DNA of 64,000 nt from the NCBI GenBank assembly GCA_025782395.1, contig JALGZD010000161.1, forward strand, positions 1-64,000, in the 5' to 3' direction. The DNA comes from a bacterium. GTDB taxonomy: Bacteria > Joyebacterota > Joyebacteria > Joyebacterales > Joyebacteraceae. Positions 1,811-63,805 of the stretch are shown piece after piece; the first letter of the stretch is position 1; the number at the start of each line of letters is the position of its first letter. The translations under genes and the position numbers were made by a program. Under the pieces are notes generated by a model. It was not told where the DNA came from, made no database searches, and was given only the letters and a program-made list of their open reading frames with translations.

Positions 1811-2002
1811 TTCTGACTGACGTGGAGCGACTCCTGCTCGTCAGACACACCGTCCGTCGACCGCGCTTCGGCGGGCATGAGTCCAACGGCGGCAGGCTGC
1901 GCTCTCACGCTCCCTGTGATTGCGGACGTCAGGGCGCCGCCGCCGGGTGGATGTGACTTAGGCGAGGGATCTCCTGGGTCCCGCGTGGGGGGAGGTGGTG
2001 TG

Positions 2003-2833
2003 GTGAGGGTGAAGGTGAAGGCTGGAAGGCAGGACGCTCAACGGTCTGGTGTCGTGGCCATGATCCTGGTTGTCGCCGTGTGCCTTGTTGCTCCGCAGGC
2101 CATGGCGCTGCAGGTCTGGAACCGTGTCGTGTTCACCGAGATCTACTACTACGTTCCGGGCTTCGATGCTCACAATGAGTACATCGAGCTGATGAATGCC
2201 GGCGGCACTGTCGCGTTCCTGGACGGGGCCGTCATTACTGATGAGGGTGACGACGGAATGCCGGAAGCCGTCTATCGCTTTCCGGGGCAGCACGGCGGCT
2301 GTCAGCATCCGCTCTGGCCCGGCGAGAGAATCGTGATTGCGAGAGATGCTATTCCGGGAGAGGTCACCCCCGATCTGTCCGGTGCCGACTGGGAGTTCGT
2401 GCATCCCTCGGATGACAACGACAACCCGGATGTTCCGAATCTGATCCTCTGCGGAGGTTACGACACCGATATCGCACTGGCGAACGGGGGAGACGGGATT
2501 CTTCTCGCGACCGGCACAGATACGATCGCGGCCATCGATTGCTGGACGATCGTGGATGGGGTGAACTGGGGCGACGTGGCGGATCCGGTGCCGATAGCCT
2601 ACGGCCTGTGTGTCGATCCTGAACCTGCGCCGGGAGTTCCTCAGGGTAACTGCCTGGGTCGATGCCCAGGGGGCGTGGATCACAACGGGAGCAGCGCCGA
2701 TGACTGGTTCATGATGATTCCCAGCCCCGGGGAACCGGCCATCCCATCTGATCCGCAAGACTGTGTCTCGCCTGTGGAGACGTCGTCATGGGGGCGGATA
2801 AAGGCACTCTACAGGCCTGCTCAGGAAGAATAG
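2003..2833 (+). CDS. Secreted lamin-tail-domain protein with SWG C-terminal tag
   Basis: The GTG at 2003 has GGAGGT six bases upstream and gives a 276-residue protein. It starts with a basic stretch, a hydrophobic signal segment (VVAMILVVAVCLVA) and a likely cleavage after PQAMA. The mature part begins RVVFTEIYYYVPGFDAHNEY, followed by IELMNAGG...LDGAVITDE. That is the pattern of a bacterial lamin-tail (LTD) domain, often found on extracellular nucleases and adhesins. No catalytic domain is visible. The C-terminus reads SPVETSSWGRIKALYR plus five more residues. This tail also occurs on two other secreted proteins in the window, ending at 53211 and 56701 on the minus strand. A longer upstream frame exists but lacks a ribosome site. 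Location is probably the cell surface; function is unknown. Confidence 0.75.
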   Translation: MRVKVKAGRQDAQRSGVVAMILVVAVCLVAPQAMALQVWNRVVFTEIYYYVPGFDAHNEYIELMNAGGTVAFLDGAVITDEGDDGMPEAVYRFPGQHGGCQHPLWPGERIVIARDAIPGEVTPDLSGADWEFVHPSDDNDNPDVPNLILCGGYDTDIALANGGDGILLATGTDTIAAIDCWTIVDGVNWGDVADPVPIAYGLCVDPEPAPGVPQGNCLGRCPGGVDHNGSSADDWFMMIPSPGEPAIPSDPQDCVSPVETSSWGRIKALYRPAQEE

Positions 2834-2910: not shown

Positions 2911-2951
2911 CTGTTTGTGACGCCGGATCATCGAACCAGTGCTCCCCCGGC

Positions 2952-3178
2952 GCAGGCGAACGTGCGGCTCCCCGCAGGCGGACGTGCGGCTCCCCGCAGG
3001 CGGATCTGCGGCTCCCCGCAGGCGGATCTGCGGCTCCCCGCAGGCGGATCTGCGGCTCCCCGCAGGCGAATCTGCGGTTCCCCGCAGGCGGACGTGCGGC
3101 TCCCCGCAGGCGGACGTGCGGCTCCCCGCAGGCGGACCTGCGGTTCCCCGCAGGCGGACGTGCGGCTCCCCGCAGGCG
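2952..3178 (+). repeat. Ten tandem 22-bp GC-rich hairpin repeats
   Basis: Ten complete head-to-tail 22-bp units run from 2952 to 3171 with consensus GCAGGCGGAC + GTGCGGCTCCCC, followed by a 7-base partial unit (3172-3178). Units differ only at four or five positions: G/A at position 8, CG/TC/CC at 10-11 and C/T at 17. Each unit junction can fold as (C)TGCGG-CTCC-CCGCA(G), so the array is a chain of small hairpins. Because 22 is not a multiple of three, open frames occur in several phases on both strands. I treat those as by-products, not genes. The array ends exactly where the acpS promoter -35 box begins. There are no spacers, so this is not CRISPR. Confidence 0.95.
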
Positions 3179-10387: not shown

Positions 10388-10450
10388 GTCGATTAGATAG
10401 TGCAGGCCCCCATAGGGCCGAAAGTTAGGGCAGATTGAAGGGATTTGCTA

Positions 10451-11986
10451 GTGAGCTATGCCGACTCAGAGACACGGACCGAGCTGGACCTCTCCACCTT
10501 CGAGGTCGACTCGCATGTGGCCCAGCTCGTTCCGCGGGAGATGGCAAGGCGGTTTCATCTCATCGCTGTGGCGCGAGAGGACGGCGCTCTTCTGGTTGCG
10601 ATGGATGACCCGCTGGACGTCATCGCTACCGACACTGTCGCCGCGAACACCGGCTACGATGTTCGGCCCGTCAAGGCTGATCCTGATGTGATCCAGGCTG
10701 CGATCGAGAAATACTACGGCGATGAAATCGATATTGAGAAGTCGATTCAGAGCATTGTTGAGGTTGAGGTCGAAACCGGTAGCTCCGGCCGTGGAGACGC
10801 AGAGCAGCTCTCGATTGAGCCGAACGATGCTCCAGTCATCAGGCTGGTCAACCTCATCCTGCTTCAGGCGATTCAGGAAGGGGCAAGTGACGTCCACATT
10901 GAGCCGCGTGACAAGGAGATTGCCGTGCGGCTCCGAATCGACGGTGTGCTTCGGGAGATACTGCCACCTCCGAAGAAGATGCAGTGGGCGATTACTTCCC
11001 GGATCAAGATTCTCTCCGGACTCAATATCGCTGAGCGTCGACTCCCGCAGGACGGTAGCTGCAGGGTGAGAGTTATGGGCCGAGAGGTCGACATCCGCAT
11101 TTCCATGATCCCCACTATCCACGGCGAGAAGGTCGTGATGCGGATCCTGGACAAGACGAATCTGAAGACGAATCTGAGCGATCTTGGATTCGATGAAGCA
11201 TCACTTGACCTCATCAAGAGCGCGATCAGCGCACCGCACGGGATGATCCTGCTGACCGGCCCGACAGGAAGCGGTAAGACAACCACCCTCTATTCGGCGC
11301 TCTCACACATCAACTCGCCGGACAAGAACATCATGACCGTAGAGGATCCTGTCGAGTACGAACTGGAGGGAATCAATCAGGTCCAGGCGAAGCCGGGGAT
11401 CGGGCTGGATTTCGCCGCAGCTCTCAGGTCGTTTCTGCGTCAGGATCCGGATGTGATCCTCGTAGGCGAGATTCGCGACTTCGAGACGGCTTCGATCGCC
11501 ATCAAGGCTGCGCAGACGGGTCATCTGGTCTTCAGCACTCTTCACACGAACGACGCCACCTCTGCGGTAGATCGACTCCTCAACATGGGAGCCGAAGCGT
11601 ACTTGATCTGCACATCGCTGAATCTGGTGATCGCACAGCGACTTGTCAGAAAAACCTGCACGAACTGCTGCGAGGAATATGATCCGGAACCGCTGCTCCT
11701 CGGAAGGTTCCAAGAGATCATGCCGGAGGCGACCGACACGGTCTTCAAACGAGGCGCCGGTTGTTCCGAATGCTCCGGCACAGGGTACAAGGGGAGGATG
11801 GCTCTCTATGAGCTTTTTCCCGTGACACGCGCCGTGAGGGAGCTTGTTCTGGCAGGGAAAGTCGGCGAAGCCGTGAGAGACACCGCTCTTGCCGAAGGGA
11901 TGAAGCCTCTGCTCGTGAACGGCATGGAGAAGGTCCGTGAAGGTTTGACAACGATAGACGAAGTGCTCTCCGTCGCAAGCGGCTAG
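10451..11986 (+). CDS. pilB: Type IV pilus assembly ATPase PilB
   Basis: This is the hexameric ATPase that powers pilus extension, 511 residues. An N-terminal MshEN/T2SSE-N-type region (about 1-120) precedes the ATPase core. The core shows Walker A GPTGSGKTTT near 270, the Asp box MTVEDPVE, Walker B DVILVGEIRD and the His box THLHTN region (FSTLHTNDA). A zinc knuckle, CTNC...CSECSG, follows near 403-445, typical of PilB/GspE and absent from PilT. I prefer GTG 10451 because AAGGGA lies seven bases upstream; the TTG at 10445 is too close to it. The protein is somewhat shorter than the usual 560 residues, at the N-terminus. It is the first gene of an eleven-gene pilus operon. Confidence 0.92.
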   Translation: MSYADSETRTELDLSTFEVDSHVAQLVPREMARRFHLIAVAREDGALLVAMDDPLDVIATDTVAANTGYDVRPVKADPDVIQAAIEKYYGDEIDIEKSIQSIVEVEVETGSSGRGDAEQLSIEPNDAPVIRLVNLILLQAIQEGASDVHIEPRDKEIAVRLRIDGVLREILPPPKKMQWAITSRIKILSGLNIAERRLPQDGSCRVRVMGREVDIRISMIPTIHGEKVVMRILDKTNLKTNLSDLGFDEASLDLIKSAISAPHGMILLTGPTGSGKTTTLYSALSHINSPDKNIMTVEDPVEYELEGINQVQAKPGIGLDFAAALRSFLRQDPDVILVGEIRDFETASIAIKAAQTGHLVFSTLHTNDATSAVDRLLNMGAEAYLICTSLNLVIAQRLVRKTCTNCCEEYDPEPLLLGRFQEIMPEATDTVFKRGAGCSECSGTGYKGRMALYELFPVTRAVRELVLAGKVGEAVRDTALAEGMKPLLVNGMEKVREGLTTIDEVLSVASG

Positions 11987-11995
11987 GAGGATGAA

Positions 11996-13114
11996 ATGCT
12001 GGACAGCGGTCTGAGTGAAGGAATCGTATCGCTCCTCAAGGAGATGGTATCCCGCCGGGCGTCGGATCTTCATCTCACCCCGGGTGTGCCGCCCCAGTTC
12101 AGGGTCGACGGCAAGCTGGAGTCTCACGATAGCCCGCGTCTCAGTTCTGATCAGACGCGCGAGCTCGCCTACGCGATGCTCGACGAGAAGAGAATCGCGC
12201 GCCTGGAAGTTGAGAAGGGGCTGGATACGTCCTTCAGCGTGGAGGATCTCGGACGCTTCAGACTGAACGTGTTTTTCCAGCGCGGGACCATTGCCGCCGC
12301 CGTGCGTCACCTGCCTTGGGTGATCCCCTCGATGCAGGAGCTCGGCGTCCCGCCGGTCATGCAGGAGTTCTGTGAGAAACTCCACGGTCTGGTTCTCGTG
12401 AGCGGGCCGACCGGTTCCGGCAAGTCAACAACTCTGGCTTCGATGATTGACTACATCAACGCTACCAAAGCCGTTCACATTCTCTCGATCGAGGATCCTA
12501 TCGAATATCTGCACAGGCACAAGCAGAGCATCGTGAACCAGCGAGAGCTGGACAGGGACACACGGTCTTTCGCGGAGGCCGTCCGACAGGTGTTGCGGCA
12601 GGATCCGGACGTGATCTGCATAGGTGAGATCAGAGACCTTGACACGGTTCGCACAGCCCTGACCCTTGCGGAGACCGGCCACCTCGTGCTGACCACAGTC
12701 CACACGAGCGAGGCGCCCCAGGCGATAAGCAGAATCGTCGACATCTTCCCCTCGCACGAACAGCAGGGAGTACGGACACAACTGTCGCTGTGCCTCGAGG
12801 GCGTGCTCGTCCAGCAGCTTCTGCCGGACGCGAGCGGAACCGGCCGGCGGCTGGTGACCGAGATGATGGTGGCGACGGCGGCGGTGAGGAACCTCATCAG
12901 GGAGAACAACCTCCAGCAGCTGAGATCCACAATCGAGACGGGATCGAAGGACGGCATGCACAGTCTGAACTCATCGCTCCTGAAACTGACGCGGGAGGGG
13001 AATCTGACGCCGGAAACGGCGCTTGTGTCCTCGAACGATATTAAGGGAATGATGAGAGAACTGGGGAAACTGAGAATCAAGACACCCACTCTCGGGCACA
13101 GAGCGGCCAACTAG
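11996..13114 (+). CDS. pilT: Type IV pilus retraction ATPase PilT
   Basis: The protein has 372 residues, slightly longer than the typical 345-350 because of a C-terminal extension. It carries RRASDLHLTPGVPPQFRVDG at the N-terminus, Walker A SGPTGSGKSTT near 137, ILSIEDPIEYLH, Walker B DVICIGEIRD and the His-box segment TGHLVLTTVHT. The zinc cysteines of PilB are absent, which identifies a retraction ATPase. It starts nine bases after pilB with an AGGAGG site. It drives twitching motility or DNA uptake by depolymerising the pilus at the inner membrane. Confidence 0.92.
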   Translation: MLDSGLSEGIVSLLKEMVSRRASDLHLTPGVPPQFRVDGKLESHDSPRLSSDQTRELAYAMLDEKRIARLEVEKGLDTSFSVEDLGRFRLNVFFQRGTIAAAVRHLPWVIPSMQELGVPPVMQEFCEKLHGLVLVSGPTGSGKSTTLASMIDYINATKAVHILSIEDPIEYLHRHKQSIVNQRELDRDTRSFAEAVRQVLRQDPDVICIGEIRDLDTVRTALTLAETGHLVLTTVHTSEAPQAISRIVDIFPSHEQQGVRTQLSLCLEGVLVQQLLPDASGTGRRLVTEMMVATAAVRNLIRENNLQQLRSTIETGSKDGMHSLNSSLLKLTREGNLTPETALVSSNDIKGMMRELGKLRIKTPTLGHRAAN

Positions 13115-13168
13115 AATCGGCGCTCGCGAACTACTTCGACTTGTCGGTGAGACAGAAGGAAACACACG

Positions 13169-14377
13169 ATGTCCGAATTCGCATACATCGCCAAGGATGT
13201 CAAAGGCAGGACCGTACAGGGTACTCGGACCGCTGAGACCGAGATGGGTCTCGTGTCTATCCTCAGGAAGGAGAACCTCGTCGTCATCTCCGTTGCGCCG
13301 CGGGCGGCGACGCAGAAGGCGCGTCGCTCGCACGGCGGCAAGAAGGTGAAGACGAAGGACAAGGCCGTCGTCTGTCGTCAGCTTTCGGCGATGCTGGATG
13401 CTGGTCTGCCTGTACTCGAGAGTCTCGACGGAATCGCCGATCAGATCGATAACCAGACGTTGGCCGGCATACTCAAGGAAGTCGCTGTGGACATCGAGGC
13501 CGGATCAACGCTTTCTCAGGGAGTCGCGAAGCACGGGAAGGTCTTCTCGACGCTCTTCGTGTCCATGGTGAGATCCGGCGAGGAGTCGGGTTCACTGCCG
13601 TCCGTGCTTGCACGTCTGGCCAGCTACCTCGAGGCGAGGGATGCCCTTACCAGGAAAATCATATCGGCGTCAACCTATCCGGTGTTTATCGCCGTCTTTT
13701 TCCTGTTTGCCGTCATAGGTATCATGTTCTTCCTGATTCCGAAGTTCGAGGTCATCTTTGCGGACTTCGACATGACACTGCCGCCGCTCACGACGGCGCT
13801 GATCACGATATCACGCTTCCTTGGGCAGAACATTGTCTGGGAGCTCGTGATTCTCGGACTCGGGACCTTCCTCTTCCTCAAGTGGAAGAAAACGCCGGCG
13901 GGCAGGCTCAAGTTTGACGGGCTCATTCTCAAGCTGCCTATGTTCGGGAAACTCATCCAGAAGGCGTCGGTTGCCAGGTTCAGCAGGACACTCGGGACGC
14001 TTATGGAAAACGGAGTGGCAGTCGTCAATGCACTCGAAATAGTCTCCGAGACCTCGGGCAACACTGTCGTGCAGAGCGCGATTGACAGAGTAAGTGAAGG
14101 AATCATCAACGGGGCGACCATCTCAGAGAAGCTCGCAGAGTCCCCGGTCTTTCCGAAGATGGTCGTCAGCATGGTCTCGGCCGGAGAGAGGTCGGGCAAC
14201 CTACCCGATATGCTCGAGAGAGTGTCCAATTTCTACACGGACGAGGTCGATACTGCAATCAGTGGACTGACAGCAATGATCGAGCCGGCCCTCATCGTTG
14301 GGCTCGGCGGCATCGTGACAGTTGTAGTGCTGGCGATCTACCTGCCCATTTTCCAGATGGCAACTGGAATACAGTAG
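13169..14377 (+). CDS. pilC: Type IV pilus inner-membrane platform protein PilC
   Basis: The predicted membrane protein has 402 residues with two T2SF (GspF) domains. The first covers about 60-195 (VVCRQLSAMLDAGLPVLESL ... VRSGEESGSLPSVLARLASYLE). The second covers about 265-390 (FSRTLGTLMENGVAVVNALE ... VSAGERSGNLPDMLERVSNFY). Three strongly hydrophobic segments follow the domains, at about 168-192, 222-240 and 370-395. PilC connects the PilB and PilT motors to the pilin filament. The ATG at 13169 follows an AGAAGGAA site. Confidence 0.92.
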   Translation: MSEFAYIAKDVKGRTVQGTRTAETEMGLVSILRKENLVVISVAPRAATQKARRSHGGKKVKTKDKAVVCRQLSAMLDAGLPVLESLDGIADQIDNQTLAGILKEVAVDIEAGSTLSQGVAKHGKVFSTLFVSMVRSGEESGSLPSVLARLASYLEARDALTRKIISASTYPVFIAVFFLFAVIGIMFFLIPKFEVIFADFDMTLPPLTTALITISRFLGQNIVWELVILGLGTFLFLKWKKTPAGRLKFDGLILKLPMFGKLIQKASVARFSRTLGTLMENGVAVVNALEIVSETSGNTVVQSAIDRVSEGIINGATISEKLAESPVFPKMVVSMVSAGERSGNLPDMLERVSNFYTDEVDTAISGLTAMIEPALIVGLGGIVTVVVLAIYLPIFQMATGIQ

Positions 14378-14424
14378 GTCGAGTCAACAGGGGAACCAAA
14401 AGAGCAGGAGAGGAGGTGAATAAG

Positions 14425-14856
14425 ATGCTACGCAAGAATCAGGGGGGTTTCACCCTCGTCGAGCTGATGATTGTGGTCATTATCGTAGGAATCCTGGCCG
14501 CGGTAGCTATCCCGATGTACCAGGGAGCTACTGAGCGTGCTAAGGCCTCAGAGGCCGTAGCGGCTCTGGGCACGATTCGTGGCGCCATGCGCGTGTACTA
14601 CGCCGAGCACGGCACGTACGTGGGTACCGGTGCCGCAATCGGTGATAAGGTCACGCTCGCGAACGTGCTTGACGTGACTGACAACGATCTTCTTGGTCGG
14701 TTCTTCAGCACGGAGTGCTACACGTTCGATGCTGTTCCGACCGCGGCTGCATTCGACATAGAGTGCGACGGCGCCAACAGCACCACGGCGCAGGCCGGTG
14801 AAGTGGCGGCGATCGTACGGTCGATCAACCAGAACGGCGATATCACCAACTCGTAG
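14425..14856 (+). CDS. pilA: Type IV pilin, major pilin candidate 1
   Basis: This is a 143-residue prepilin. A short leader ends in glycine (NQGG) before the mature N-terminus FTLVELMIVVIIVGILAAVAIPMY, with Glu at position 5 of the mature chain, so it is a substrate of PilD. The globular part has two cysteines (STECYTF and DIECDGA) about 30 residues apart that could form the D-region disulfide. I chose ATG 14425, seven bases after AGGAGGT, over the GTG at 14416 that overlaps the site. A paralogue of the same length follows at 15046. The two share YYAEHG, the ECYTF segment and the SINQNGDI-like ending. Confidence 0.9.
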   Translation: MLRKNQGGFTLVELMIVVIIVGILAAVAIPMYQGATERAKASEAVAALGTIRGAMRVYYAEHGTYVGTGAAIGDKVTLANVLDVTDNDLLGRFFSTECYTFDAVPTAAAFDIECDGANSTTAQAGEVAAIVRSINQNGDITNS

Positions 14857-14870
14857 CGGAGATGTGTGAT

Positions 14871-14904
14871 CCGGGGGCGACACCTGTTGCGGTGTTGCCC
14901 CCGG
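14871..14904 (+). terminator. Hairpin between the two pilin genes
   Basis: A 14-bp stem (14871-14884 with 14891-14904, one G-T pair) closes on a 6-base loop. No T-run follows, so it more likely stabilises the pilA1 message or gives partial termination than ends transcription fully. Confidence 0.7.
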
Positions 14905-15045
14905 GGGCATCCAACAAGGAGGGAAACTGAGACGTCTGCTATCAAGTGTGCATCGGGGCATCTTGCGGAGTACCGGGGCTGGTGAACGCGCCTGTCCGGG
15001 CTGCTCCCAGCTGGAGCGGGTGTTCGATGGAGGGAGGTTAGGGGC

Positions 15046-15477
15046 ATGCAGCACAGGAACGAACAAGGTTTCACGCTTGTTGAACTAATGATCGTCGTGA
15101 TGATAGTAGGTGTGCTCGCTGCGGTGGCGATTCCGATGTATCAAGTCGTACCTGAGCGTTCAATGGGCACTGAGGCCACGACGGCGCTAGGACTGGTTAA
15201 GGACGCCATGCGCGCCTACTACGCGGAGCACGGCTCCTACGCGGACGCGAGTTTCACGGACGGCGCCCTGGTGACGGCGGGTGGGGTGTTGGGTATGAGC
15301 GCGAACGATCTAGAGGGAAGGTATTTCAGCGAGGAGTGCTACACGTTCGACGGGGCTTCAGGGGCGAACACATTCACTATCAAATGCGACGGGTTACAGA
15401 GTACCGCGATGTGCGGGAGTGACGTGTCAGGCGTGATGAAGACGATCAACCAGGACGGAGACATAGTCGGCAATTAG
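15046..15477 (+). CDS. Type IV pilin, candidate 2
   Basis: This second 143-residue prepilin has the leader MQHRNEQG before FTLVELMIVVMIVGVLAAVA. The ATG at 15046 has AGGGAGGT upstream. Compared with the first pilin, the helix and the sequence YYAEHGSY are conserved, while the middle loop diverges. It has three cysteines (EECYTF, KCDGL, AMCGS) instead of two. It may be an alternative major pilin or a minor pilin. The gap to the first pilin is 189 bp and contains a stable hairpin, which could set different expression levels. Confidence 0.88.
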   Translation: MQHRNEQGFTLVELMIVVMIVGVLAAVAIPMYQVVPERSMGTEATTALGLVKDAMRAYYAEHGSYADASFTDGALVTAGGVLGMSANDLEGRYFSEECYTFDGASGANTFTIKCDGLQSTAMCGSDVSGVMKTINQDGDIVGN

Positions 15478-15578
15478 CAGCGGTCGGAGGAAGATCGGCA
15501 GGGACTGCTAAGGGGTGCAGCATCAGAGGTGTTCTTCGATCGGTTCAGAGGACACCTGAGACAGGGGGAGCCCTCGCC

Positions 15579-16598
15579 ATGTTCGCGCATGAAACAAGGA
15601 CGGTTGTAGGTCTCGACATGGGATCTACCTCTGTCAAGCTGGTGGAACTCTCGGGTCATCCGGGGACCTTTCGCCTGGAGAACCTGGCGCTCGCCGTGAT
15701 CGAAGCGCCGAGAGATGAAGCGGCGGTTCTGGCAGCCGTGCGCTCGGCCAGGGATGCGTGTGGGGAAGGCGGACGCAGGGCGGTTGGATCCGTCAGTGGG
15801 CCGCACGTCGCGGTGAGGAGCTTCCACTTCCCAAGGATGGCTGAGAAGGATGTGAAGGGAGCCATATGGTACGAGGGCAGCCAGGTGATTGCCTTCGACA
15901 TCGCTGACTCGTACGTTGACTACACTGCGATGGAGGTCACTCCTGATAGTCGAACCATGAACGTGCTCTTCGTCGCAGCGATGAAGGCGGAGGTTGACTC
16001 GAAGGTGCAGCTCATGAAGAGCTGTGGTTTCGACCCCAGGAGCATCGGCGTTGATGCACTCGTGCTCCTGGAGGCGCTTCTGGCCGCAGAGGAGCAGTCT
16101 GCTGCGACACTCGCGATTATGGACGTAGGTGCAAGGACAACGAGCATAGGGATAGCGCGAAGGGGAATGGTTCCCTTCATGAGGGATGTGGACATCGCGG
16201 GCGACACCTACACGAGAGCCATTGGAGAACTACTCGGCATAGACCAGAAGGAAGCGGAGAAGGTTAAGATGACCGAGGCGATCACGAACCCGGCAGTCTC
16301 GCAGGCCGCCGGCGGAGTTACGCGGCACCTGGTCGGGGAAGTATCGAGGTCGATTGCATACTACAAGAGCAGGGACGATGGGAGCGAAGTGGATCGTATC
16401 TATCTGTGTGGTGGAGGGTCGGGTTTTCCAAATCTCCCGGAGGTTCTTGAAGAAGTCACGGGCATCCGTGTTCTTCCCTGGAGTCCCCTCGAGTTGGTCG
16501 AGATTGATGAGTCTCGTTTCGACAAGGCCACAGTGGATCACTTGGCGCCGTTCGTGTCTCTCGCTGCTGCGCTGGCCATGGTGGAGGGCGTTCACTAG
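15579..16598 (+). CDS. pilM: Type IV pilus assembly protein PilM
   Basis: This is an actin-like (FtsA-fold) cytoplasmic ATP-binding protein, 339 residues. VGLDMGSTSVKLVEL is the phosphate-1 loop, IMDVGARTTSIGIARRGMVPFMRDVDIAGD the phosphate-2 region and IYLCGGGSGFPNL the adenosine loop. PilM binds the cytoplasmic tail of PilN and links the inner-membrane ring to the ATPases. The ATG follows CAGGGGGAG. pilN starts two bases after its stop, so the two are probably translated together. Confidence 0.9.
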   Translation: MFAHETRTVVGLDMGSTSVKLVELSGHPGTFRLENLALAVIEAPRDEAAVLAAVRSARDACGEGGRRAVGSVSGPHVAVRSFHFPRMAEKDVKGAIWYEGSQVIAFDIADSYVDYTAMEVTPDSRTMNVLFVAAMKAEVDSKVQLMKSCGFDPRSIGVDALVLLEALLAAEEQSAATLAIMDVGARTTSIGIARRGMVPFMRDVDIAGDTYTRAIGELLGIDQKEAEKVKMTEAITNPAVSQAAGGVTRHLVGEVSRSIAYYKSRDDGSEVDRIYLCGGGSGFPNLPEVLEEVTGIRVLPWSPLELVEIDESRFDKATVDHLAPFVSLAAALAMVEGVH

Positions 16599-16600
16599 CG

Positions 16601-17203
16601 ATGTATGACATCAACCTCATACGCAAGAACGTTGTACCCGACCGGAGGAAGAACGCCATCTTCTCCATCGTGTCCTTCTCCGTGCTGGTTTGCACCCTGA
16701 CCGTTCTGGCCGTTGCCTTCTTCTCGACGGCGAATTTCAGGATGATCGATGTCTACGCGCGTGAGATCGACAAACTGGAGGGGGACTTGACTGCGCTCTA
16801 CCCTGGGACGCCGACCCTGGACGAACTCGCCACGATCATGCGCAGAATCAAGCCTGATCTCAAGGAGATCAGCACTGTTATCAACTCGCGCACGGATCTT
16901 ACGTACATCTGGGAAGCCGTGGCCCGGACAGTTCAGGACGATGTTTGGTTGACCCACGTGAGTCTCAAGGTGCCGCGAGACGATGGACGGAAGGTCGGTT
17001 TCAGGGGCATAGTCATCGAGGGACACGCTCTTTCGTCGGGGGAAACGAGCAGCGAAGAGGCCATTCAGGACTTCGCGACCAGACTCGAGGAAGATCCGGA
17101 ACTCAAGAGTTACATATCAGAGGTCAAGTTTGCCGAAACCGGCAAGATGAAGATAGATAATCGTTCGGTGATCGGGTTCGAAATCACGTGTCTGTTCAAA
17201 TAG
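16601..17203 (+). CDS. pilN: Type IV pilus assembly protein PilN
   Basis: This is a 200-residue bitopic inner-membrane protein. The short cytoplasmic N-terminus MYDINLIRKN is the conserved PilM-binding motif (INLxP/R type). A membrane helix follows at about 25-47 (IFSIVSFSVLVCTLTVLAVAFF), then a periplasmic coiled coil and a ferredoxin-like domain. It pairs with PilO. Position and topology identify it more strongly than sequence conservation. Confidence 0.88.
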   Translation: MYDINLIRKNVVPDRRKNAIFSIVSFSVLVCTLTVLAVAFFSTANFRMIDVYAREIDKLEGDLTALYPGTPTLDELATIMRRIKPDLKEISTVINSRTDLTYIWEAVARTVQDDVWLTHVSLKVPRDDGRKVGFRGIVIEGHALSSGETSSEEAIQDFATRLEEDPELKSYISEVKFAETGKMKIDNRSVIGFEITCLFK

Positions 17204-17274
17204 CTACGAGGGAATCGCACGATCCGATGATCAACGAGCCAAGGGGGGCTTGTCGTCACGGTCGGTGGGGGTAG

Positions 17275-17952
17275 ATGTTGAAGCTGCCGTTCAGTCGCAA
17301 GAAGGCCCCAGAGAGGCCCGAGCAGGAAGCTCGAGAGAGCTCCAGAGCTCCAGAGCTCCCGCAGGAGAAGAGCGCTTCGGAAGACCGTGCAACTGGCGGT
17401 CCTTCTTCCGGAGGGATGATTGCCCTTCTCAAACGCAGTCACTCGGCCATTCGCGGCCCGTGGTCGATCTGGCGGATCGCCGCACTGGTGATTCTCGTCT
17501 ATATCGCTGCGGCGAATATCTCGTACTTCCTTGTTCTGAAGCCGGTCTGGGTGAGGCTGGAGACTCTGAAGGAGAAGAAGGACATCATTCAGGATTTCTT
17601 CATCGTGCGCGAGTCGAGCACCGCGGTCGCGGGGTTCAAGGACGCGCTCATGCACGGTGATCAGCGGATGACCGTGATCGCTGTGCTGGAGGAGATGAGC
17701 GAAGAGGCGGGACTCAGGTTCAGGGAAGAGCCCAGACTGCTCGCCGGGGCGGGGTTGTCGAAGCGTGTGACGGAGTACCCGATCGAGATTTCGCTCAAAG
17801 GTTCCTACCACGAGCTGGGGCAATTCATCAGCGCAATCGAGAGTTGCGAGAGGTATCTGACTGTAAGGTTGATTGAGATGGATGGTCCGGAGAGCGGAAC
17901 GGGGGACGCTGAAGCCCGCATTGTCGTTGGTGCGGTCTCCTGGGAGGGTTGA
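17275..17952 (+). CDS. pilO: Type IV pilus assembly protein PilO
   Basis: The 225-residue protein has a cytoplasmic N-terminus rich in Pro, Glu and Lys, unusually long at about 60 residues for PilO. A membrane helix (IWRIAALVILVYIAAANISYFLVL) follows, then a short coiled coil and a periplasmic domain with YPIEISLKGSYHELGQFISAIE, the typical PilO signature. The ATG at 17275 follows GGTGGGGGT. The N-terminal tail is partly encoded by a small GAGCTCCA repeat near 17336. It forms the inner-membrane alignment complex with PilN and PilP. Confidence 0.88.
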   Translation: MLKLPFSRKKAPERPEQEARESSRAPELPQEKSASEDRATGGPSSGGMIALLKRSHSAIRGPWSIWRIAALVILVYIAAANISYFLVLKPVWVRLETLKEKKDIIQDFFIVRESSTAVAGFKDALMHGDQRMTVIAVLEEMSEEAGLRFREEPRLLAGAGLSKRVTEYPIEISLKGSYHELGQFISAIESCERYLTVRLIEMDGPESGTGDAEARIVVGAVSWEG

Positions 17953-17957
17953 GCGCG

Positions 17958-18461
17958 GTGAAGATGAGTGAACTGACGGCTAACAAGAAGAAGCAGCTTA
18001 TGGTGGGCCTCTTGGGTCTCATTCTTGTGGTTGCCGTCGTGGTCAGAATACTCCCCGGCGGAATGATGGATTCAGTCGCCGCTGCGCCGAGCTCCGGCAA
18101 CCGCAGTCTTCTCGACAAGGACCCCGGCCTCCTGCTGTCGGTCGCTTCTATCGCGAAGGCGAGAGCGGAGAGGGTCTACGGCGGAGCGGATCTTCGCGAC
18201 CCCATGGAGGCACTGGTAAGAGCTTCAGCGAGATCGAGCAGCCCCTCTCCGCAGGCGTCACAGGCCCCCGCCGCACCTGTTCAGCTTCCGTTGATGACCC
18301 TCTACGGCGTCATCTGGGACCCCGACAGCCCGATAGCGATAATAGATGGATTGGACCTGCGCGTTGGAGACAAGATAAAGGGAGCGCGCATTGTTGGAAT
18401 AGAATTCGACAGTGTGTCATTGTCCTACAGGTCAAAGTCCTTTGAACTTACTGTCGACTAG
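17958..18461 (+). CDS. PilP/GspC-like pilus assembly protein
   Basis: The protein has about 167 residues. A membrane anchor near residues 15-33 (LMVGLLGLILVVAVVVRIL) is followed by a Ser/Pro/Ala linker and a C-terminal HR-like domain, LMTLYGVIWDPDSPIAIIDG to the end, which resembles the PilP/GspC domain that docks on the secretin. PilP is normally a lipoprotein; no lipobox is seen, so the anchor is more GspC-like. The start may be GTG 17958 or ATG 17964. GGGAGGG at 17942-17948 favours the former. A TTG at 17949 overlaps the pilO stop but is too close to that site. Confidence 0.75.
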   Translation: MKMSELTANKKKQLMVGLLGLILVVAVVVRILPGGMMDSVAAAPSSGNRSLLDKDPGLLLSVASIAKARAERVYGGADLRDPMEALVRASARSSSPSPQASQAPAAPVQLPLMTLYGVIWDPDSPIAIIDGLDLRVGDKIKGARIVGIEFDSVSLSYRSKSFELTVD

Positions 18462-18489
18462 TGTCCGAGGACTGGCAGGAGCGACCTGA

Positions 18490-19875
18490 ATGTACCGTCG
18501 ACTGAGGAGGTTGAGCAATATGTTCAGCAGATTGAATCCACCCCGCTGCCGGAGTGCGGTACTGCTCCTGGTGGCCGTTGTGGTGCTTCTTGCAACGACG
18601 AGCCTTGCGTGGTCTCAGACATCCGCAAGGGAGGACATTGTCAGAAGCCAGCGGATCTCACTCAACCTGCAGAACGTCACGTTGGGAAGCGTACTCAAGG
18701 TGATGACCCAGAAATCGGGCATCAACTTCCTGATCGGTTCGGAACTCGTGGGACGGAACATCAATGTCTACCTCGAGGACGTTCTGGTGGAAGACGCGCT
18801 TGCTGCGATCCTGCGGGCGAACGGTCTGTGGTACACACGACAGAAGGGAACCAATATCTACGTCATCATGTCATCGCCGGAAGGTCCACCCGTGGCGACG
18901 ATGACGGAGGTCTTCAGAACCAACTACGCGAATGCCGTCGAGCTGGGCGAGACCATGGATAAGGTTCTGACGAACCTGGGTAGCGTCGTGGTCGATGCAA
19001 GGACCAGCTCGCTTGTCATCTCAGACATTCCTGAGAACATGGCGACCCTGAGAGCGCTCGTTCAGGAACTGGACACCCCAACGGGTCAGGTCCTCATAGA
19101 GGCCAGGATCGTCGAGTTCGCGGAGGATTCGTCACACGAACTCGGTATTTCCTGGGACGCCAGCAATCCGATGGACGAATCGTCGGGCGATGGCGCTATC
19201 TCGTACAATACGACCTTCAACAGCAGTTCGGGTGTAGAGGGCCTCTTCGAGCTCTCGGTCGGCAAGTTCGCTTCGTTCAGCGATCTCAAGGATATCGCCG
19301 CCAAGATATCCGCCATGCAGAAGGAAGGACAAGCGCGTGTTCTCGCACGCCCCCAGATCCTGACACTGGATAACCGGGAAGCTGTGATCGAGATCATCCG
19401 CAATATGGCCCTGGCCCGGAAGGTCACGTATCGCGAGGGTGGGCAGGAGTCGACCGTCGAGCCGATCTTCGGCCAGGTAGGTGTTACTCTGAAAGTTACG
19501 CCTCACGTGAACAGTGAAAACATCGTCACGCTGGAAGTCGAACCGATGGTCAGCTCGGCACAGCGCTCGGCCTACTTCCCCGATGATGCTGTGGACACGA
19601 AGCACAGAACGGCCAGGACCACCGTCATGATACCTGACGGCCAGACAGTCGTCATGGGCGGTCTTCTCAGAAAAGATGTGATAGACACTGATTTTAAGGT
19701 GCCCATCCTGGGCGACATCCCGCTCCTTGGGATGCTCTTCAGGAAGAGCATCAGGACGGAGACAGACACGGAGATCGTTCTCTTCCTGACCCCGAGAATC
19801 CTGAGTGGAGAGGCCCTCGAGCGCTACAGTGGACGACGCGCGAGTGAAATCGACGCACGGACGGAGGATTGGTAG
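18490..19875 (+). CDS. pilQ: Type IV pilus secretin PilQ
   Basis: This is an outer-membrane secretin, 461 residues and shorter than most PilQ because AMIN domains are missing. A signal segment (AVLLLVAVVVLLATTSLAWSQ) is followed by a STN-like domain (ISLNLQNVTLGSVLKVMTQKSG ...), an N1 domain and the secretin core. The core includes VLIEARIVEF, QARVLARPQILTLDN, a GVTLKVTPHV segment, PDGQTVVMGGLLR and VPILGDIPLLGMLFR ... IVLFLTPRI. Two starts are possible: ATG 18490 and ATG 18520, the latter with GAGGAGG nine bases upstream. The shorter start gives a more typical signal peptide. The stop overlaps the pilD start. Confidence 0.92.
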   Translation: MYRRLRRLSNMFSRLNPPRCRSAVLLLVAVVVLLATTSLAWSQTSAREDIVRSQRISLNLQNVTLGSVLKVMTQKSGINFLIGSELVGRNINVYLEDVLVEDALAAILRANGLWYTRQKGTNIYVIMSSPEGPPVATMTEVFRTNYANAVELGETMDKVLTNLGSVVVDARTSSLVISDIPENMATLRALVQELDTPTGQVLIEARIVEFAEDSSHELGISWDASNPMDESSGDGAISYNTTFNSSSGVEGLFELSVGKFASFSDLKDIAAKISAMQKEGQARVLARPQILTLDNREAVIEIIRNMALARKVTYREGGQESTVEPIFGQVGVTLKVTPHVNSENIVTLEVEPMVSSAQRSAYFPDDAVDTKHRTARTTVMIPDGQTVVMGGLLRKDVIDTDFKVPILGDIPLLGMLFRKSIRTETDTEIVLFLTPRILSGEALERYSGRRASEIDARTEDW

Positions 19876-20639
19876 TGTTGATGGCGGCGAGCCTGTTCGC
19901 AGTGGGGGCCATCTTCGGGAGCTTCCTCAATGTGCTCATATATCGCCTTCCCAGAGGGGAGTCGATCGTAAGGCCGCCGTCTGCGTGCCCCGAGTGCGGG
20001 CACAGGATCATGCCGTGGGACAATGTTCCCATCGTGAGCTACCTGATGCTGCGGGGGAGGTGCCGCCGCTGCAAGGCAGCCATCTCCTCGCGGTATCTTG
20101 TGGTTGAAGTACTGGCCGGGCTGGTGCCGGCGCTTCTGGTGTGGCGCTACGGTTTGGGCCGAGAGGCGCTGGTGCTGTGTCTGCTCAGCTACGTTCTGAT
20201 CGTCGTCTCGTTCATTGACCTGGATCTGAGAATCATACCCGACCGCGTCACGCTCCCGGGAATTGCGGTGGGGCTGATCGCAGCACCGCTTCTCGGCCTG
20301 ACGACATTCGGTGGATCTCTCCTGGGTGCGGTAGTGGGTGGTGGCGCGCTCTATCTGATTGCCATCATCGGCGAAGCTGCTTTCGGCAAGGAAAGCATGG
20401 GTGGGGGAGACATCAAGCTTGCTGCAATGCTCGGTGCCTTCCTGGGGTGGCAGGCGGTACTGCTATTGCTGTTTGCCGCCTTCTTCTTCGGAGCTCTTGT
20501 GGGAGCCATGGTGGTCAGAGCTCATGGGTCGGAGTGGGACCACAGCATGCCGTTCGGCCCCTTCATCGCGATCGGGGCGTTCGTAGCCACGATCTGGGGC
20601 GATGCGATACTGGCGTGGTACGGTATGCTGTTCGGCTGA
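19875..20639 (+). CDS. pilD: Prepilin peptidase PilD
   Basis: This is a polytopic aspartic protease and methyltransferase, 254 residues. The N-terminal FGSFLNVLIYRLPRGESIV is followed by the zinc-site cysteines CPECGHRI (Cys38, Cys41) and CRRCKAAISSRY. The catalytic aspartates lie in FIDLDLRIIPD and in MGGGDIKLAAMLGAFLG. It cleaves the prepilin leaders of the two pilins and three minor pilins encoded nearby. The GTG at 19875 overlaps the pilQ stop by one base, and GGAGG lies seven bases upstream. It is the last gene of the operon before a strong terminator. Confidence 0.93.
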   Translation: MLMAASLFAVGAIFGSFLNVLIYRLPRGESIVRPPSACPECGHRIMPWDNVPIVSYLMLRGRCRRCKAAISSRYLVVEVLAGLVPALLVWRYGLGREALVLCLLSYVLIVVSFIDLDLRIIPDRVTLPGIAVGLIAAPLLGLTTFGGSLLGAVVGGGALYLIAIIGEAAFGKESMGGGDIKLAAMLGAFLGWQAVLLLLFAAFFFGALVGAMVVRAHGSEWDHSMPFGPFIAIGAFVATIWGDAILAWYGMLFG

Positions 20640-38621: not shown

Positions 38622-41246
38622 CTACTTCACGAGACTGACCTTCCTTGTTACTGCCTCTCCGTTTGCCTCGAGCTTCATGAAGTACGTGCCGCTCGAAACC
38701 GCCCGGCCTTGATCATTCCGTCCATCCCAGTGCGCTTCATGCTGACCGGCTTCCCGGTAACCGGATTCCACCGTCCGCACGCATCTGCCGGCGAGGTCAT
38801 GGACCGTGATCGATACACCCGCCGGCCTGGACAGAGAGTACACCACCGTCGTACTCGGGTTGAACGGGTTGGGGAAGCTCGCGAACCCGGCGATGGTCTT
38901 GGCTTCGGCGATCCCGTCATCTACGCCGGTCACGTCATTCAGGTCGATCGAGTACATCGAACGTCCGTGAGTTCCAGCTACGAGCGTTCTCGTAGGCTGA
39001 TGGATCTTGAGGTCGAAGACGGGCGCCGGTGGAAGACCGGTCCCGAGCACCTCCCAGTTCGCGCCCAGGTCCTTCGTGAAGAAGCAGCCGACATCCGTGC
39101 CGATGTAGAGCGCCGATGGCAGATCCGGATCGACAGCGACTACATTGAACGGGGCATCCGGAAGATTTCCGCTGATATCCGTCCAGGTCGTGCCGAAGTC
39201 GTCCGTCCTGTAGAGGTGGGCGATCTCTTCATCCCATCTCAACCCGGAGAAGGTCACGTAGGCGACGGACGCATCGTTGTGGTCGACGGCGACACGCGTG
39301 ACCCAGCGGTTCGGAAGTGTCCCGGAGATATTCGACCAGGTCCCCCCGCCGTTCTCCGTGACCCAGACGTTGGAGTCGTCGGTGCCGACGTAGATGACAT
39401 CCGGATCGCCGGAGGAGACCGCGATCGTCGTGATCGTACCGTAGCTACCCTGGTTTCCGTTCGTGAGGTCGGTGCTGATTGCGCTCCACCATGAAGCGCC
39501 ATCGGTCGTGCGCCAGAGCCTGTAGGTTCCGAAGTAGAGCGTCTGCGCGTCGGAGGGGTCCATCACGATAGGCGACGACCAGTTTCTACGGTCGCCCCCA
39601 TTGACGCCGTTGAGCGCCCACGACCAGTAGTTGCCGAAGTCGGTGGACTTGTAGGCGTTGCCCCACTGGTACTCGCAGTAGATCGTGTTCGGGTCTGTCG
39701 GATCGACGATCGTGTAGAACCCGTCGCCGCCGAAGATTCTTTCCCAGTCATCAGTCGCACCGGTCGGGGTCCTGAGCGTGCCGTTGTCCTGTGTCCCACC
39801 GTAGAGTCGTTCGGGATGCTGGTAGTCGATCTCGATCGCGTAGAACTGGTTGGTCGGTTGGTCGTAGAGTTTTGTCCAGGAGCTTCCGCTGTCCGTCGAG
39901 ACGTAGATGCCGCCGTCGTTGCCCTCGAATATCCTCGTGGCGTCGGTCGGGTCGAACTCCAGGGCGTGGTGGTCGACGTGGTTGTCGTAGCCCACCTCCG
40001 ACCAGCTCGCGCCTCCGTTCTGCGACCTGTAGAAGGGAACACCGAGTGCGAATACGCGATCGGGATTGTCCGGATCGACTCGCACCTGACCGAAGTACCA
40101 GCCGAAGGAGCGTGTCAGGTTTGAGAGCGCGCCGTCGTTCGTCTGCGTCCAGGTGTCGCCGCCGTCGGTGCTTTTGAAGAGGCCGTCGAAGTAGCCCGGG
40201 TCGTCGACATACATGGCATAGATGACGCTCGGGTCGGATTCGCACACTGAGATGCCGATACGGCCGACCCCAGAGCCCGAGGGCAGCCCGCTTGTGAGTT
40301 CGGACCAGGTATCGCCGCCGTCGGTGGAGCGGTATATGCCGCTCGACGGACCGCCGGATCTCCTGTACGTGCGCCTCCGGACACGTTCCCACATAGCGAC
40401 ATAGACAGTGTCCGGGTGGTCGGGGTTGATGGCCAGATCGATCGCCGCAGTCGAGTCCGTGAGCGCGAAGACCTGCGTCCAGGAGTCGCCCGCATCGGTC
40501 GACCGATAGACACCGCGGTCCGGGTTCGTTCCGAAGAGTGTTCCTGTGGCTGCGACCCACACGCGGTCGGTGTTCCTGGGGTCGATCACGATTCGACCGG
40601 TGTAGCGTGTCTCCTCGAGACCAATGTGGCTCCAGGTGGATCCGCCATCCGTCGATTTGAAGATCCCGGCGCCGAACCAGCTCGAACTCGTGGCATTTGA
40701 TTCCCCGGTGCCCACGTAGATGACGTCCGGGTCGTCGGGGTCCACGGCCATGTCGCCTATGGTGAGGACCGGCTGGTCATCGAAGATGGGATCCCACGTG
40801 CTGCCGCCGTCCGCAGTCTTGAAGAGCCCGCCGCTCGCCATTGCAGCATAGATAATGTCGGGATCAGTCGGGTCGAAGGCGAGGTCGGTAACACGAGCCC
40901 CGATGTTGCTTGGCCCGCGCTCCTGCCACGCAGCGCGGTCCGACCGCGTCGCCGAGAGTCTCAGGGCGTACCCGTCCGCCATAGCCTCGGTCATCTGCTC
41001 GTGGTTGACCTCCTCATAGGGGTATGCCCGCTGAGCGAACGACCAGTCGTTCGGGAAGGTCCCCGGCTCGTAGAGCCTCCCTTCCGCCGCCATCTCAGCC
41101 TTGAGGGATGCCTTCTCGGCTGAGATTCGAGATGCGATCTCTTCAGTGGTCATGAGCTCTGTAGTGCGTGTGTTACGCACTGCCCAGAGCACTACGATCA
41201 GGGCAAGAACAAGAAGCACAGGGAAAAGAACTCGTCGTCTTGTCAT
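38622..41246 (-). CDS. Secreted Asp-box (VPS10/sialidase-like) beta-propeller with FlgD-like tail
   Basis: The protein has 874 residues. A signal anchor (VLFPVLLVLALIVVLWAV) is followed by a helical stretch and then about twelve Asp-box repeats (S/T-x-D-x-G-x-x-W, for example KSTDGGSTW, RSTDGGDTW, VTENGGGTW), which build one or two beta-propellers of the VPS10/BNR type. The catalytic residues of sialidases are not recognisable, so it is probably a binding protein or an unknown glycan or peptide hydrolase. The C-terminal 85 residues (FPNPFNPSTTVVYSL ... LAGRCVRTV ... WDGRNDQGRAVSSGTYFMKL ... KVSLVK) form a FlgD-like/Por-secretion-like tail. The ATG follows GCAGGAGG. It is convergent with the Moco-sulfurase-like gene. 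Confidence 0.85.
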   Translation of the reverse strand: MTRRRVLFPVLLVLALIVVLWAVRNTRTTELMTTEEIASRISAEKASLKAEMAAEGRLYEPGTFPNDWSFAQRAYPYEEVNHEQMTEAMADGYALRLSATRSDRAAWQERGPSNIGARVTDLAFDPTDPDIIYAAMASGGLFKTADGGSTWDPIFDDQPVLTIGDMAVDPDDPDVIYVGTGESNATSSSWFGAGIFKSTDGGSTWSHIGLEETRYTGRIVIDPRNTDRVWVAATGTLFGTNPDRGVYRSTDAGDSWTQVFALTDSTAAIDLAINPDHPDTVYVAMWERVRRRTYRRSGGPSSGIYRSTDGGDTWSELTSGLPSGSGVGRIGISVCESDPSVIYAMYVDDPGYFDGLFKSTDGGDTWTQTNDGALSNLTRSFGWYFGQVRVDPDNPDRVFALGVPFYRSQNGGASWSEVGYDNHVDHHALEFDPTDATRIFEGNDGGIYVSTDSGSSWTKLYDQPTNQFYAIEIDYQHPERLYGGTQDNGTLRTPTGATDDWERIFGGDGFYTIVDPTDPNTIYCEYQWGNAYKSTDFGNYWSWALNGVNGGDRRNWSSPIVMDPSDAQTLYFGTYRLWRTTDGASWWSAISTDLTNGNQGSYGTITTIAVSSGDPDVIYVGTDDSNVWVTENGGGTWSNISGTLPNRWVTRVAVDHNDASVAYVTFSGLRWDEEIAHLYRTDDFGTTWTDISGNLPDAPFNVVAVDPDLPSALYIGTDVGCFFTKDLGANWEVLGTGLPPAPVFDLKIHQPTRTLVAGTHGRSMYSIDLNDVTGVDDGIAEAKTIAGFASFPNPFNPSTTVVYSLSRPAGVSITVHDLAGRCVRTVESGYREAGQHEAHWDGRNDQGRAVSSGTYFMKLEANGEAVTRKVSLVK

Positions 41247-50546: not shown

Positions 50547-53114
50547 ATGTATACCGTGGAGAGGTGGAAGCTCGTACTTCGGCTGCTTGTCACGGCGCTC
50601 TTGGTGACGTTCGCGACTTCGGCGAGCGCGGACTTCCACGTTTTCTCTGAGGACTTCTCGGACACGGAGTTCAAGGACGCTACCGCTACGACCGCGGTCT
50701 GGGACACGGCCGCCGGGTGGATACAACTCCCGATCTTCGAGATGCGAATGGTGGGTAGCACAGTTCTTCCAGGCATTGGGCTCGACGTCGTTGCCATTGG
50801 GGATATCGCATATGTCGCTGCCGACGCGGCCGGATTGCAAATCATCGACATCAGTGACCCCGCGGCTCCGATCATCATCGGGGACTACGACACGCCCGGT
50901 AATGCCAGGGACATCGCCGTAGCAGGCGGCCTGGCCTTCGTGGCCGACCGGCTCGAGGGGCTTCAGATCATCAGCGTGAGCAACCCCGGAGCCCCGACAT
51001 TCGTCGGCAGCTGCACAACGCCCACAGCGGCGCTCGGGGTCGCGGTCTCCGGCGATCATGCATACGTTGTCGCCGGGGAGTACGGCCTCCTGGTGATCGA
51101 CATCAGCGATCCATCGGCCCCTTTCGTGGCAGGTTCGCTGGATACGGGCGGTGAGTCCGTTGATATCGCTATCAGCGGTCGATTCGCCTTCGTAGCGGCG
51201 AAGAGCGGTGGGCTCCTCGTCATCGATATTGACGACCCTACCGCTCCCAGCAACGCATGGAAGCTTATGACGTCCTGGGACGTTCATGCCGTGGCCGTGG
51301 CGGGGGACATCGCCTACATCGCCGGCTCCAGCAGTGGATGGCCGCCTCCCAGCGAGTCGTTCTTTCTGGCCGTGGATATCAGTTCTCCCGGTGGCGGCGT
51401 GGCGATAGGCACCATCCTGGGATACGGACAGCCGAGTTCCATTTTCATCGATGGAGATCGGGTGTACGTCGCTGATTGGTCGGACGGCCTTTCGGTCATA
51501 GACGTAAGTGATCCGACCGCTCCTGTTCTCGAGGACGCATTTGACTCTCCAATGGGGCCACGCGGTGTATCTGTGGCCGGCAGCCACGCATACCTGGCGG
51601 ATACGGCAGACGGTCTCAACATCGTGCGCGTGGGCTCGCCCGTGCCTCCGGAGACGATGGCTACGAGCGACACACCGGGCGGCGCGTACGGAATCGTCGT
51701 CGAGGGGAACCATGTTTTCATAGGTGACCAGGTCGGTGGTTTTCAGATCATCGATATCACGAATCCCCTTGCCCCGGTGCACGCTGGAGGTGTCGACACG
51801 CCAGGCAGATCGTACGGTCTGGATGTGGCCGGCAACTACTGCTACGTGGCTGACGGCGGATTCGGTCTGCGCGTAGTGGACGTGACCAACACCGAGACAC
51901 CCGTTGAGGTCGGAAGCTACAACTCTCCCGGATTTGCCTACGATGCTGTCGCAAGCGGGAACAGCGTATTCATGGCCGATGGAAACGCCGGCGTCGAGAC
52001 TTACGACGTCACGGACCCGGCGAATCCGCTACCGGTCGGTCTCTGTGATACTCCGGGCACGGCCTACAGCATCGCCGTGGACGGGGACATCGTGTACCTG
52101 GCTGATCGCTACGGTGGCCTCCAGGTGCTCGATGCGAGTGATCCCGAGACCCTGAGGATAGTCGGGAACTGCGATGCGCCGCAGGATGCGCGGGCGGTCG
52201 AGGTTCGAGGTAGCATCGCGTATGTGGCGGATGCCGGTTCAGGGCTCAGGATCATTGATGTCAGCGATCCCTCAGACCCGGTTGAAATGGGGTCGCTGGA
52301 TATCGCCGCCGGCGCCTATGGTATCGCGGTCAGGGGCGATGTGGCCTACACCGCCCTCGGAGTGTGCGGTGTCGAGGCGGTGGATGTCTCGGATCCTGCT
52401 AATCCCATCTCGCTCGGTCGGACTGATGTCGATGACTGGGCGTACGGCATCGCGGTGGCTGGTGACTACGCATATGTCACGGACAGCGAATCCGGAATCA
52501 AGGTGATGGAGATCTTCCAGCACCGGCTCGATACCGAGCAGGACTTTGTGATGTCGCTCCCCATCGGCACGACAACCGGTGAGATCCTGAACGTTGAGAT
52601 CGAGACTGTTCAGATGGACTCCATCCGTTGGGAGCTGAGCGCGGATGCTGGGGCGACGTGGGAGGAGGTCCACCCGGGAGGCCGGCCCCACGCGTTCTCG
52701 AGCCCGGGCGACGAGCTTCTGTGGCGGGCCGAACTGGTCTACAAACAGCTCGGCGATTTTCCCCTCTGCAGCGAGCTTGTCGTGACATGGTTTGCTCAGG
52801 AGACGGGTGTTGGTGACGATCCCCAGATGCCGCCGTCGTTTGCTCTCTACCAGAACCGGCCCAATCCGTTCGGACCATCGACGAGGATTCAGTACGATGT
52901 CCCGGCTCAAGGCGGAGTGGTGACACTTGAGGTCTTCGATGTGCGGGGGAGACTCGTGAGGCGGCTGAAGCGCGGGGACGAGGCGCCGGGCTGCAATGAG
53001 GTCATCTGGGACGGGCGAAACTCGAGCGGGGACCGTGTCGCGGCGGGTGTCTACTTCTACAGACTCGAAGGCCCCGGATTTGAGCGCGAGCGGAAGATGA
53101 TCGTGCTCAGGTGA
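50547..53114 (+). CDS. Secreted LVIVD-repeat beta-propeller protein with FlgD-like tail
   Basis: The protein has 855 residues. A signal peptide (LLVTALLVTFATSASA) is followed by a short segment and about fourteen LVIVD-type repeats of roughly 43 residues. Each contains VAVxGxxAYVADxxxGLxIIDVSDPxxPxxxG, and together they fold as beta-propellers. The pattern breaks near residue 640, before a domain with DSIRWELSADAGATWEEV. The last 85 residues (LYQNRPNPFGPSTRIQYDV ... DVRGRLVRRL ... WDGRNSSGDRVAAGVYFYRLEG ... KMIVLR) form a FlgD-like secretion/attachment tail. GGAGGGGG precedes the ATG. Likely surface-exposed; no enzymatic motif. Confidence 0.88.
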   Translation: MYTVERWKLVLRLLVTALLVTFATSASADFHVFSEDFSDTEFKDATATTAVWDTAAGWIQLPIFEMRMVGSTVLPGIGLDVVAIGDIAYVAADAAGLQIIDISDPAAPIIIGDYDTPGNARDIAVAGGLAFVADRLEGLQIISVSNPGAPTFVGSCTTPTAALGVAVSGDHAYVVAGEYGLLVIDISDPSAPFVAGSLDTGGESVDIAISGRFAFVAAKSGGLLVIDIDDPTAPSNAWKLMTSWDVHAVAVAGDIAYIAGSSSGWPPPSESFFLAVDISSPGGGVAIGTILGYGQPSSIFIDGDRVYVADWSDGLSVIDVSDPTAPVLEDAFDSPMGPRGVSVAGSHAYLADTADGLNIVRVGSPVPPETMATSDTPGGAYGIVVEGNHVFIGDQVGGFQIIDITNPLAPVHAGGVDTPGRSYGLDVAGNYCYVADGGFGLRVVDVTNTETPVEVGSYNSPGFAYDAVASGNSVFMADGNAGVETYDVTDPANPLPVGLCDTPGTAYSIAVDGDIVYLADRYGGLQVLDASDPETLRIVGNCDAPQDARAVEVRGSIAYVADAGSGLRIIDVSDPSDPVEMGSLDIAAGAYGIAVRGDVAYTALGVCGVEAVDVSDPANPISLGRTDVDDWAYGIAVAGDYAYVTDSESGIKVMEIFQHRLDTEQDFVMSLPIGTTTGEILNVEIETVQMDSIRWELSADAGATWEEVHPGGRPHAFSSPGDELLWRAELVYKQLGDFPLCSELVVTWFAQETGVGDDPQMPPSFALYQNRPNPFGPSTRIQYDVPAQGGVVTLEVFDVRGRLVRRLKRGDEAPGCNEVIWDGRNSSGDRVAAGVYFYRLEGPGFERERKMIVLR

Positions 53115-63777: not shown

Positions 63778-63805
63778 AGGTCTCTCCCTAGCCTGAGTTG
63801 CGCGG

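Follow-up and report, generated by a model that had tools for sequence, protein, structure and literature searches.

In a group of uncultured bacteria, we found one nine-residue core, Trp-Gly-x-Ile-Lys-Ala-Leu/Met-Tyr-Arg, at the ends of dozens of exported proteins that are otherwise unrelated, and we are highly confident that this core belongs to a real, widespread and apparently undescribed tag dedicated to exported proteins. Judged from the sequence comparisons below, we lean towards a function as a minimal sorting or docking signal that is linked to the type IX secretion system (T9SS) and dispenses with an Ig-like domain.

Sequence of the tag in the window and in related proteins

The window, that is, the whole stretch of 64,000 nucleotides that was analysed, encodes three proteins with the tag and four with FlgD-like tails (Table 1). 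The three tagged tails were confirmed where the earlier note had placed them, and P, V, E, S, W, G, I, K, A, Y and R were common to all three (11 of the 16 positions). In a six-frame translation of the whole window, the pattern W[GA]x[IVLM]K matched three times, each match lying within 14 residues of a stop. The three proteins showed a signal-peptide-like N-terminus on inspection, as had been claimed, and their bodies were assigned to different families: a weak match to the Lamin Tail Domain (LTD), choice_anch_J/Cleaved_Adhesin, and Chlamydial PMP beta-helix repeats. A GC-rich tandem array with a 22-base period and about 10 copies was also observed at positions 2951-3178 of the window, between the upstream lamin-tail protein and the next gene.

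Table 1. Positions in the window of the tags, the tagged and FlgD-tailed proteins, and the pilus/secretion genes.
Feature	Position	Strand	Remarks
Lamin-tail-domain-like exported protein with tag	1877-2833	+	True start probably near 2000
Tag SPVETSSWGRIKALYR	2768-2815	+	Followed by PAQEE and a stop
Type IV pilus/T2SS-like genes: PilB-, PilT-, PilC-, PilM-, PilN-, PilO- and PilQ-like, and prepilin peptidase	10445-20639	+	Named by inspection of the translations
Exported protein with FlgD-like T9SS type A tail	38622-41246	-	TIGR04183 34.1 bits, above cut-off
LVIVD-repeat/choice_anch_B-like exported protein with FlgD-like tail	50547-53114	+	TIGR04183 20.5 bits, below the 23-bit cut-off
Choice-of-anchor J/cleaved-adhesin-fold exported protein with tag	53211-53807	-	Start ATG at 53807
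Tag APVEHTSWGSIKAMYR	53214-53261	-	Stop directly after
PMP-repeat beta-helix exported protein with tag	56701-58080	-	
Tag SPVEKVSWGVIKAMYR	56704-56751	-	Stop directly after
Exported protein with T9SS type A tail	59750-60835	+	TIGR04183 29.3 bits
Fibronectin III-rich exported protein with T9SS type A tail	60919-63834	-	TIGR04183 30.3 bits

The consensus of 182 distinct tails was S/T-P-V-E-x-x-[ST]-W-G-x-I-K-[AG]-[LM]-Y-R. Within the prefix, P, V and E were each present in 59-70% of these tails and the remaining columns were near-fixed, the near-fixity of W, G, I, K and Y being due in part to the search pattern itself. Relatives reached by other queries included clear family members with WA, WS or WT, with VK, with F for Y and with K or Q for R; the Trp-Gly and Lys...Tyr-Arg positions, which had been described as invariant, were thus dominant but not strictly so. 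The codons at the Gly, Ile, Tyr and Arg positions were free, with four Gly, six Arg and three Ile codons in use, which indicates that selection acts on the peptide. A beta-helix paralogue adjoining a tagged one (L120:2249-3490, minus strand) ended in GVAPWRTLRTLPR, apparently a decayed tag. The tail matched no Pfam or NCBIfam model, in agreement with the view that it has no named family, and a literature search for the motif, or for T9SS in the tag-bearing phyla, returned nothing on the motif.

Position of the tag and nature of its carriers

The relaxed motif W[GAS]x[IV]Kxx[YF][RK] gave 143 matches in 940 ORFs (367,033 residues, all fetched loci), of which 137 lay within 22 residues of the C-terminus and six were internal, all in one protein family; most of these loci were fetched by the motif, so that the counts reveal an absence of stray internal copies and not an unbiased rate. 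When the home genome and the phylum set were searched and a stop codon was not demanded, all but a few copies lay within 19 residues of the C-terminus. The distance from the Trp to the protein end was 9 residues in 170 of 192 cases. A simple home-made rule, as opposed to SignalP, assigned a signal-peptide-like start to 131 of the 143 complete tag proteins, compared with 14 of the 41 other ORFs of the window, and many of the 12 exceptions appear to be truncated or shifted frames.

Removal of the tag left 161 bodies that fell into 49 single-linkage clusters, and in an alignment of 49 representatives the only invariant columns were those of the tag. The bodies included choice_anch_J/X, LTD, NHL and FG-GAP propellers, PKD, beta-helix, pectate lyase and MAM-like domains. 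The earlier note had read the tail as a sorting or anchoring signal, a reading to which equal occurrence inside proteins, carriage by cytoplasmic proteins or homology of the carriers along their length would be contrary. None of the three was seen, and the position, the exported cargo and the unrelated bodies all support this reading, while the act of sorting itself is something that we infer.

The structure model of the protein at 53211 was a beta-sandwich, and its best PDB match was the K1 adhesin domain from Lys-gingipain, which is a well-known cargo of T9SS. Residues 184-198 of the model, its last 15, had a pLDDT below 50 and formed a short helix with no extra domain; the tag followed the body directly.

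Internal copies in the MAM-like family

In five members of the MAM-like family (L002, L003, L036, L045 and L122, from home contig C13 and relatives), the tag was found inside a loop insertion of about 30-40 residues. These five members had no intact C-terminal tag, although L122 retained a decayed SWQLIKEIAR, whereas the loop insertion was absent from the eight complete members with a C-terminal tag. The W-G-x-I-K-x-x-Y-R core of the internal copies was conserved and the flanks had diverged. The internal placement probably reflects one evolutionary event, and hence a single natural experiment, but it does suggest that the tag is able to function elsewhere than at the C-terminus, and this would favour docking over cleavage. 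The structure model of an internal-tag protein, with a mean pLDDT of 52, was too poor for use.

Copy numbers and distribution among lineages

At the DNA level, WGxIKxxYR matched 34 times in the home genome and the reversed pattern did not match at all, which shows that the tag is not a product of chance. All 20 genomes of the home phylum were tag-positive, with 612 matches against one for the control and 10-58 matches per genome. Of 47 genomes in the phylum to which an Eisenbacteria MAG belongs, 42 were tag-positive (259 matches against one for the control). A stricter pattern that includes the stop codon was used to scan one genome per species across 84,980 species, and at least 115 stretches with the tag and a stop were recovered. 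Among the matches listed, the MAG labels were Eisenbacteria, Effluviviaceae, Krumholzibacteriia, Aegiribacteria, Coatesbacteria, Zixibacteria and 'Gemmatimonadota DHS20C21', or there was none; as far as seen among these matches, the tag is confined to related FCB-type lineages; the earlier note had proposed a test for clustering in one lineage. The host of the window is most likely a member of Ca. Effluviviaceae in the phylum Ca. Effluviviacota, a Gram-negative lineage of seeps and sediments near Eisenbacteria and Latescibacterota (PMC11323493).

T9SS genes in tag-bearing genomes

SprA was detected in 19 of the 20 home-phylum genomes, above the curated cut-off in 17 of them, and in none of the 14 control genomes. 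The PorV family was represented in all 20, with 9-19 matches each. In the home genome a full-length PorU adjoined PorV, and the PorU model gave more than 20 matches per home-phylum genome, many of which were peptidase domains. Relatives of the T9SS carrier and peptidase are unusually numerous for home-phylum genomes of 2-4 Mb, for example in G000. In several genomes, a tag protein of the L001 type has next to it a gene with a match to the C25 peptidase portion of the PorU model (G000:C1:180993-187057 and relatives at G001:C1, G002:C106 and G003:C14).

SprA also exceeded the cut-off in all 11 tag-bearing genomes reached from other loci, one of which (G037) is from Effluviviaceae. In the phylum of the Eisenbacteria MAG, SprA matched strongly in 39 of the 42 tag-positive genomes; G043, G044 and G052, which make up the remainder, had PorV and no detectable SprA, possibly as a result of an assembly gap. 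As SprA was found in four of the five tag-less genomes of this phylum as well, it does not predict the tag, although the tag falls within T9SS lineages. The neighbours of tag genes included no recurring family apart from other tag or FlgD-tailed proteins and no candidate for a carrier or receptor. A co-occurring dedicated protease or transferase, which the earlier note had suggested looking for, did not emerge: these genomes do encode a T9SS, but the ordinary type A tails that they also contain are served by it as well.

Exchange of the tag with the type A tail

All four FlgD-tailed proteins of the window matched PF13860 and three passed TIGR04183. As claimed previously, no FlgD/Por_Secre tail was found on the three tagged proteins of the window; for these proteins and the 49 tagged representatives, neither the type A models TIGR04183, PF18962 and PF13860 nor the type B models TIGR04131 and PF13585 were listed (25 of 27 families being shown in the Pfam list). 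In the home phylum, choice_anch_J proteins ended in either the tag or the type A tail. Furthermore, 44 tag bodies had FlgD-ended homologues, such as beta-helix bodies sharing 41% identity over 300 residues, and none of the proteins examined carried both tails. Homologous bodies with either tail are what would be expected if the tag and the type A tail were alternative signals for one purpose.

Proposed function and alternative explanations

In the model that we somewhat favour, the peptide [SA]-P-V-E-x-x-[ST]-W-G-x-I-K-A-[LM]-Y-R would be a dedicated sorting (docking) tag. The signal peptide would take a tag protein to the periplasm, where its body would fold and display the tag on a flexible tail. 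An outer-membrane export component would then recognise the tag and either bring the cargo to the cell surface or release it. The likeliest recogniser would be the T9SS of the host, probably through one of its many PorV-family carrier barrels, and the tag would do with 9-16 residues what the Ig-like type A domain of about 75 residues does on other cargo. That the tag causes sorting, that T9SS reads it and by which subunit are steps that we infer. The presence of the tag in T9SS-bearing lineages, the way in which it and the type A tail replace each other among homologous bodies, and the resemblance of the 53211 body to the K1 adhesin domain argue for T9SS.

Several observations count against T9SS. 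Neither in sequence nor in predicted structure does the tag resemble the last type A strand; to our knowledge, every T9SS signal described so far is a domain of at least about 75 residues, and we know of none that is placed internally, as the tag is in one family. Export of RgpB, moreover, requires an intact Ig-like fold (PMC11285876). The link to T9SS is further weakened by the tag-less genomes with SprA, by the three tag-positive genomes in which SprA was not detected and by the lack of a recurring carrier neighbour. A broader, tentative proposal is that the tag is a position-tolerant nine-residue address peptide for a receptor still to be found, constituting a second sorting code beside T9SS type A in several uncultured phyla, one that would need no Ig-like domain or membrane helix and could work even inside a folded protein.

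A possible, though doubtful, alternative is that the tag docks to a receptor outside T9SS, such as a surface scaffold, an S-layer, a glycan-bound adaptor or a periplasmic retention factor, and sets where an exported protein stays instead of taking it across the outer membrane. A short and predicted flexible tag, the tolerance of an internal loop with a conserved core in one family, and a T9SS that is not specific to tag-bearing genomes would all suit such docking, but the type A tail occupies the same place on homologous bodies, which suggests a shared route, and the neighbours of tag genes offered no candidate for a receptor.

That the tag marks proteins for a protease or transpeptidase which cleaves them and attaches them to a surface anchor, in the manner of PorU with type A cargo and of sortases with LPXTG, appears unlikely. 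The C-terminal position of the tag, PorU itself and the abundance of matches to its model in the home phylum are compatible with cleavage; however, the usual end at nine residues past the Trp leaves no membrane helix or positive stop-transfer segment after the motif, cutting at the internal copies would split the protein, and it is type A tails that are known as substrates of PorU in this genome. A PEP-CTERM/LPXTG architecture was rejected for want of a membrane helix after the motif.

Another outer-membrane route, for example the type II secretion (T2SS)/type IV pilus secretin system, is more improbable still. The window contains a complete-looking run of pilus/T2SS-like genes, and folded secreted proteins are typical T2SS cargo, but the tag bodies are common to T9SS type A cargo and we know of no linear C-terminal tag on T2SS cargo. 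A mobile or regulatory DNA or RNA element translated by chance at gene ends, which might place one peptide at the 3' ends of unrelated genes and insert once within a gene family, was rejected as highly improbable because synonymous positions are free, the reading frame is constant, the DNA around the tag is not shared and TAG is merely the commonest stop in the window (25 of 36 gene-like ORFs) of a GC-rich genome.

The surface and secreted proteins of a lineage are marked by its C-terminal sorting tags, which also point to the export machinery. If the reading through T9SS is true, a very short tag in T9SS-bearing phyla outside Bacteroidota would widen the set of signals that T9SS can read and would bear on what is recognised, the Ig-like fold or a terminal peptide alone, a question on which the 22-residue result with HBP35 stands against the intact-domain result with RgpB. 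A single motif search also annotates about 10 to 58 exported proteins per Effluviviacota genome, many of them without any family.

Comparison with known sorting signals

The closest comparison is with the T9SS type A tail (TIGR04183/PF18962; here FlgD-like, PF13860). Both the tag and this tail are C-terminal on signal-peptide proteins of many families, often end choice-of-anchor, adhesin, beta-helix or propeller bodies, occur in the same genomes on homologous bodies and have an important lysine near the C-terminus. In contrast, the type A tail is a seven-stranded Ig-like domain of about 75-100 residues, whereas the tag consists of 9-16 residues, forms no domain, has no sequence match to it and is internal in one family. 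The type B (TIGR04131/PF13585) and type C (cl41395) C-terminal domains are likewise alternative sorting classes in T9SS bacteria, and their existence indicates that, with different carrier barrels, a single machine is able to read signals that are not related to each other. These regions are about 100 residues or longer and type B usually adjoins a PorP/SprF gene; the tag is not of this size, and no family recurs beside tag genes other than tag or FlgD-tailed proteins.

PEP-CTERM, MYXO-CTERM, GlyGly-CTERM and LPXTG resemble the tag as short conserved C-terminal motifs on unrelated exported proteins of one lineage, with dozens per genome. Each of them combines its motif with a membrane helix, a basic end and a dedicated protease, whereas the tag lacks the helix and the protein ends right after the motif. 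The cargo-loading peptides of encapsulins and similar tails share with the tag a short conserved terminal peptide, a flexible linker, unrelated cargo and, as proposed here for the tag, docking to a receptor; encapsulin cargo is cytosolic, whereas the tag proteins have signal peptides.
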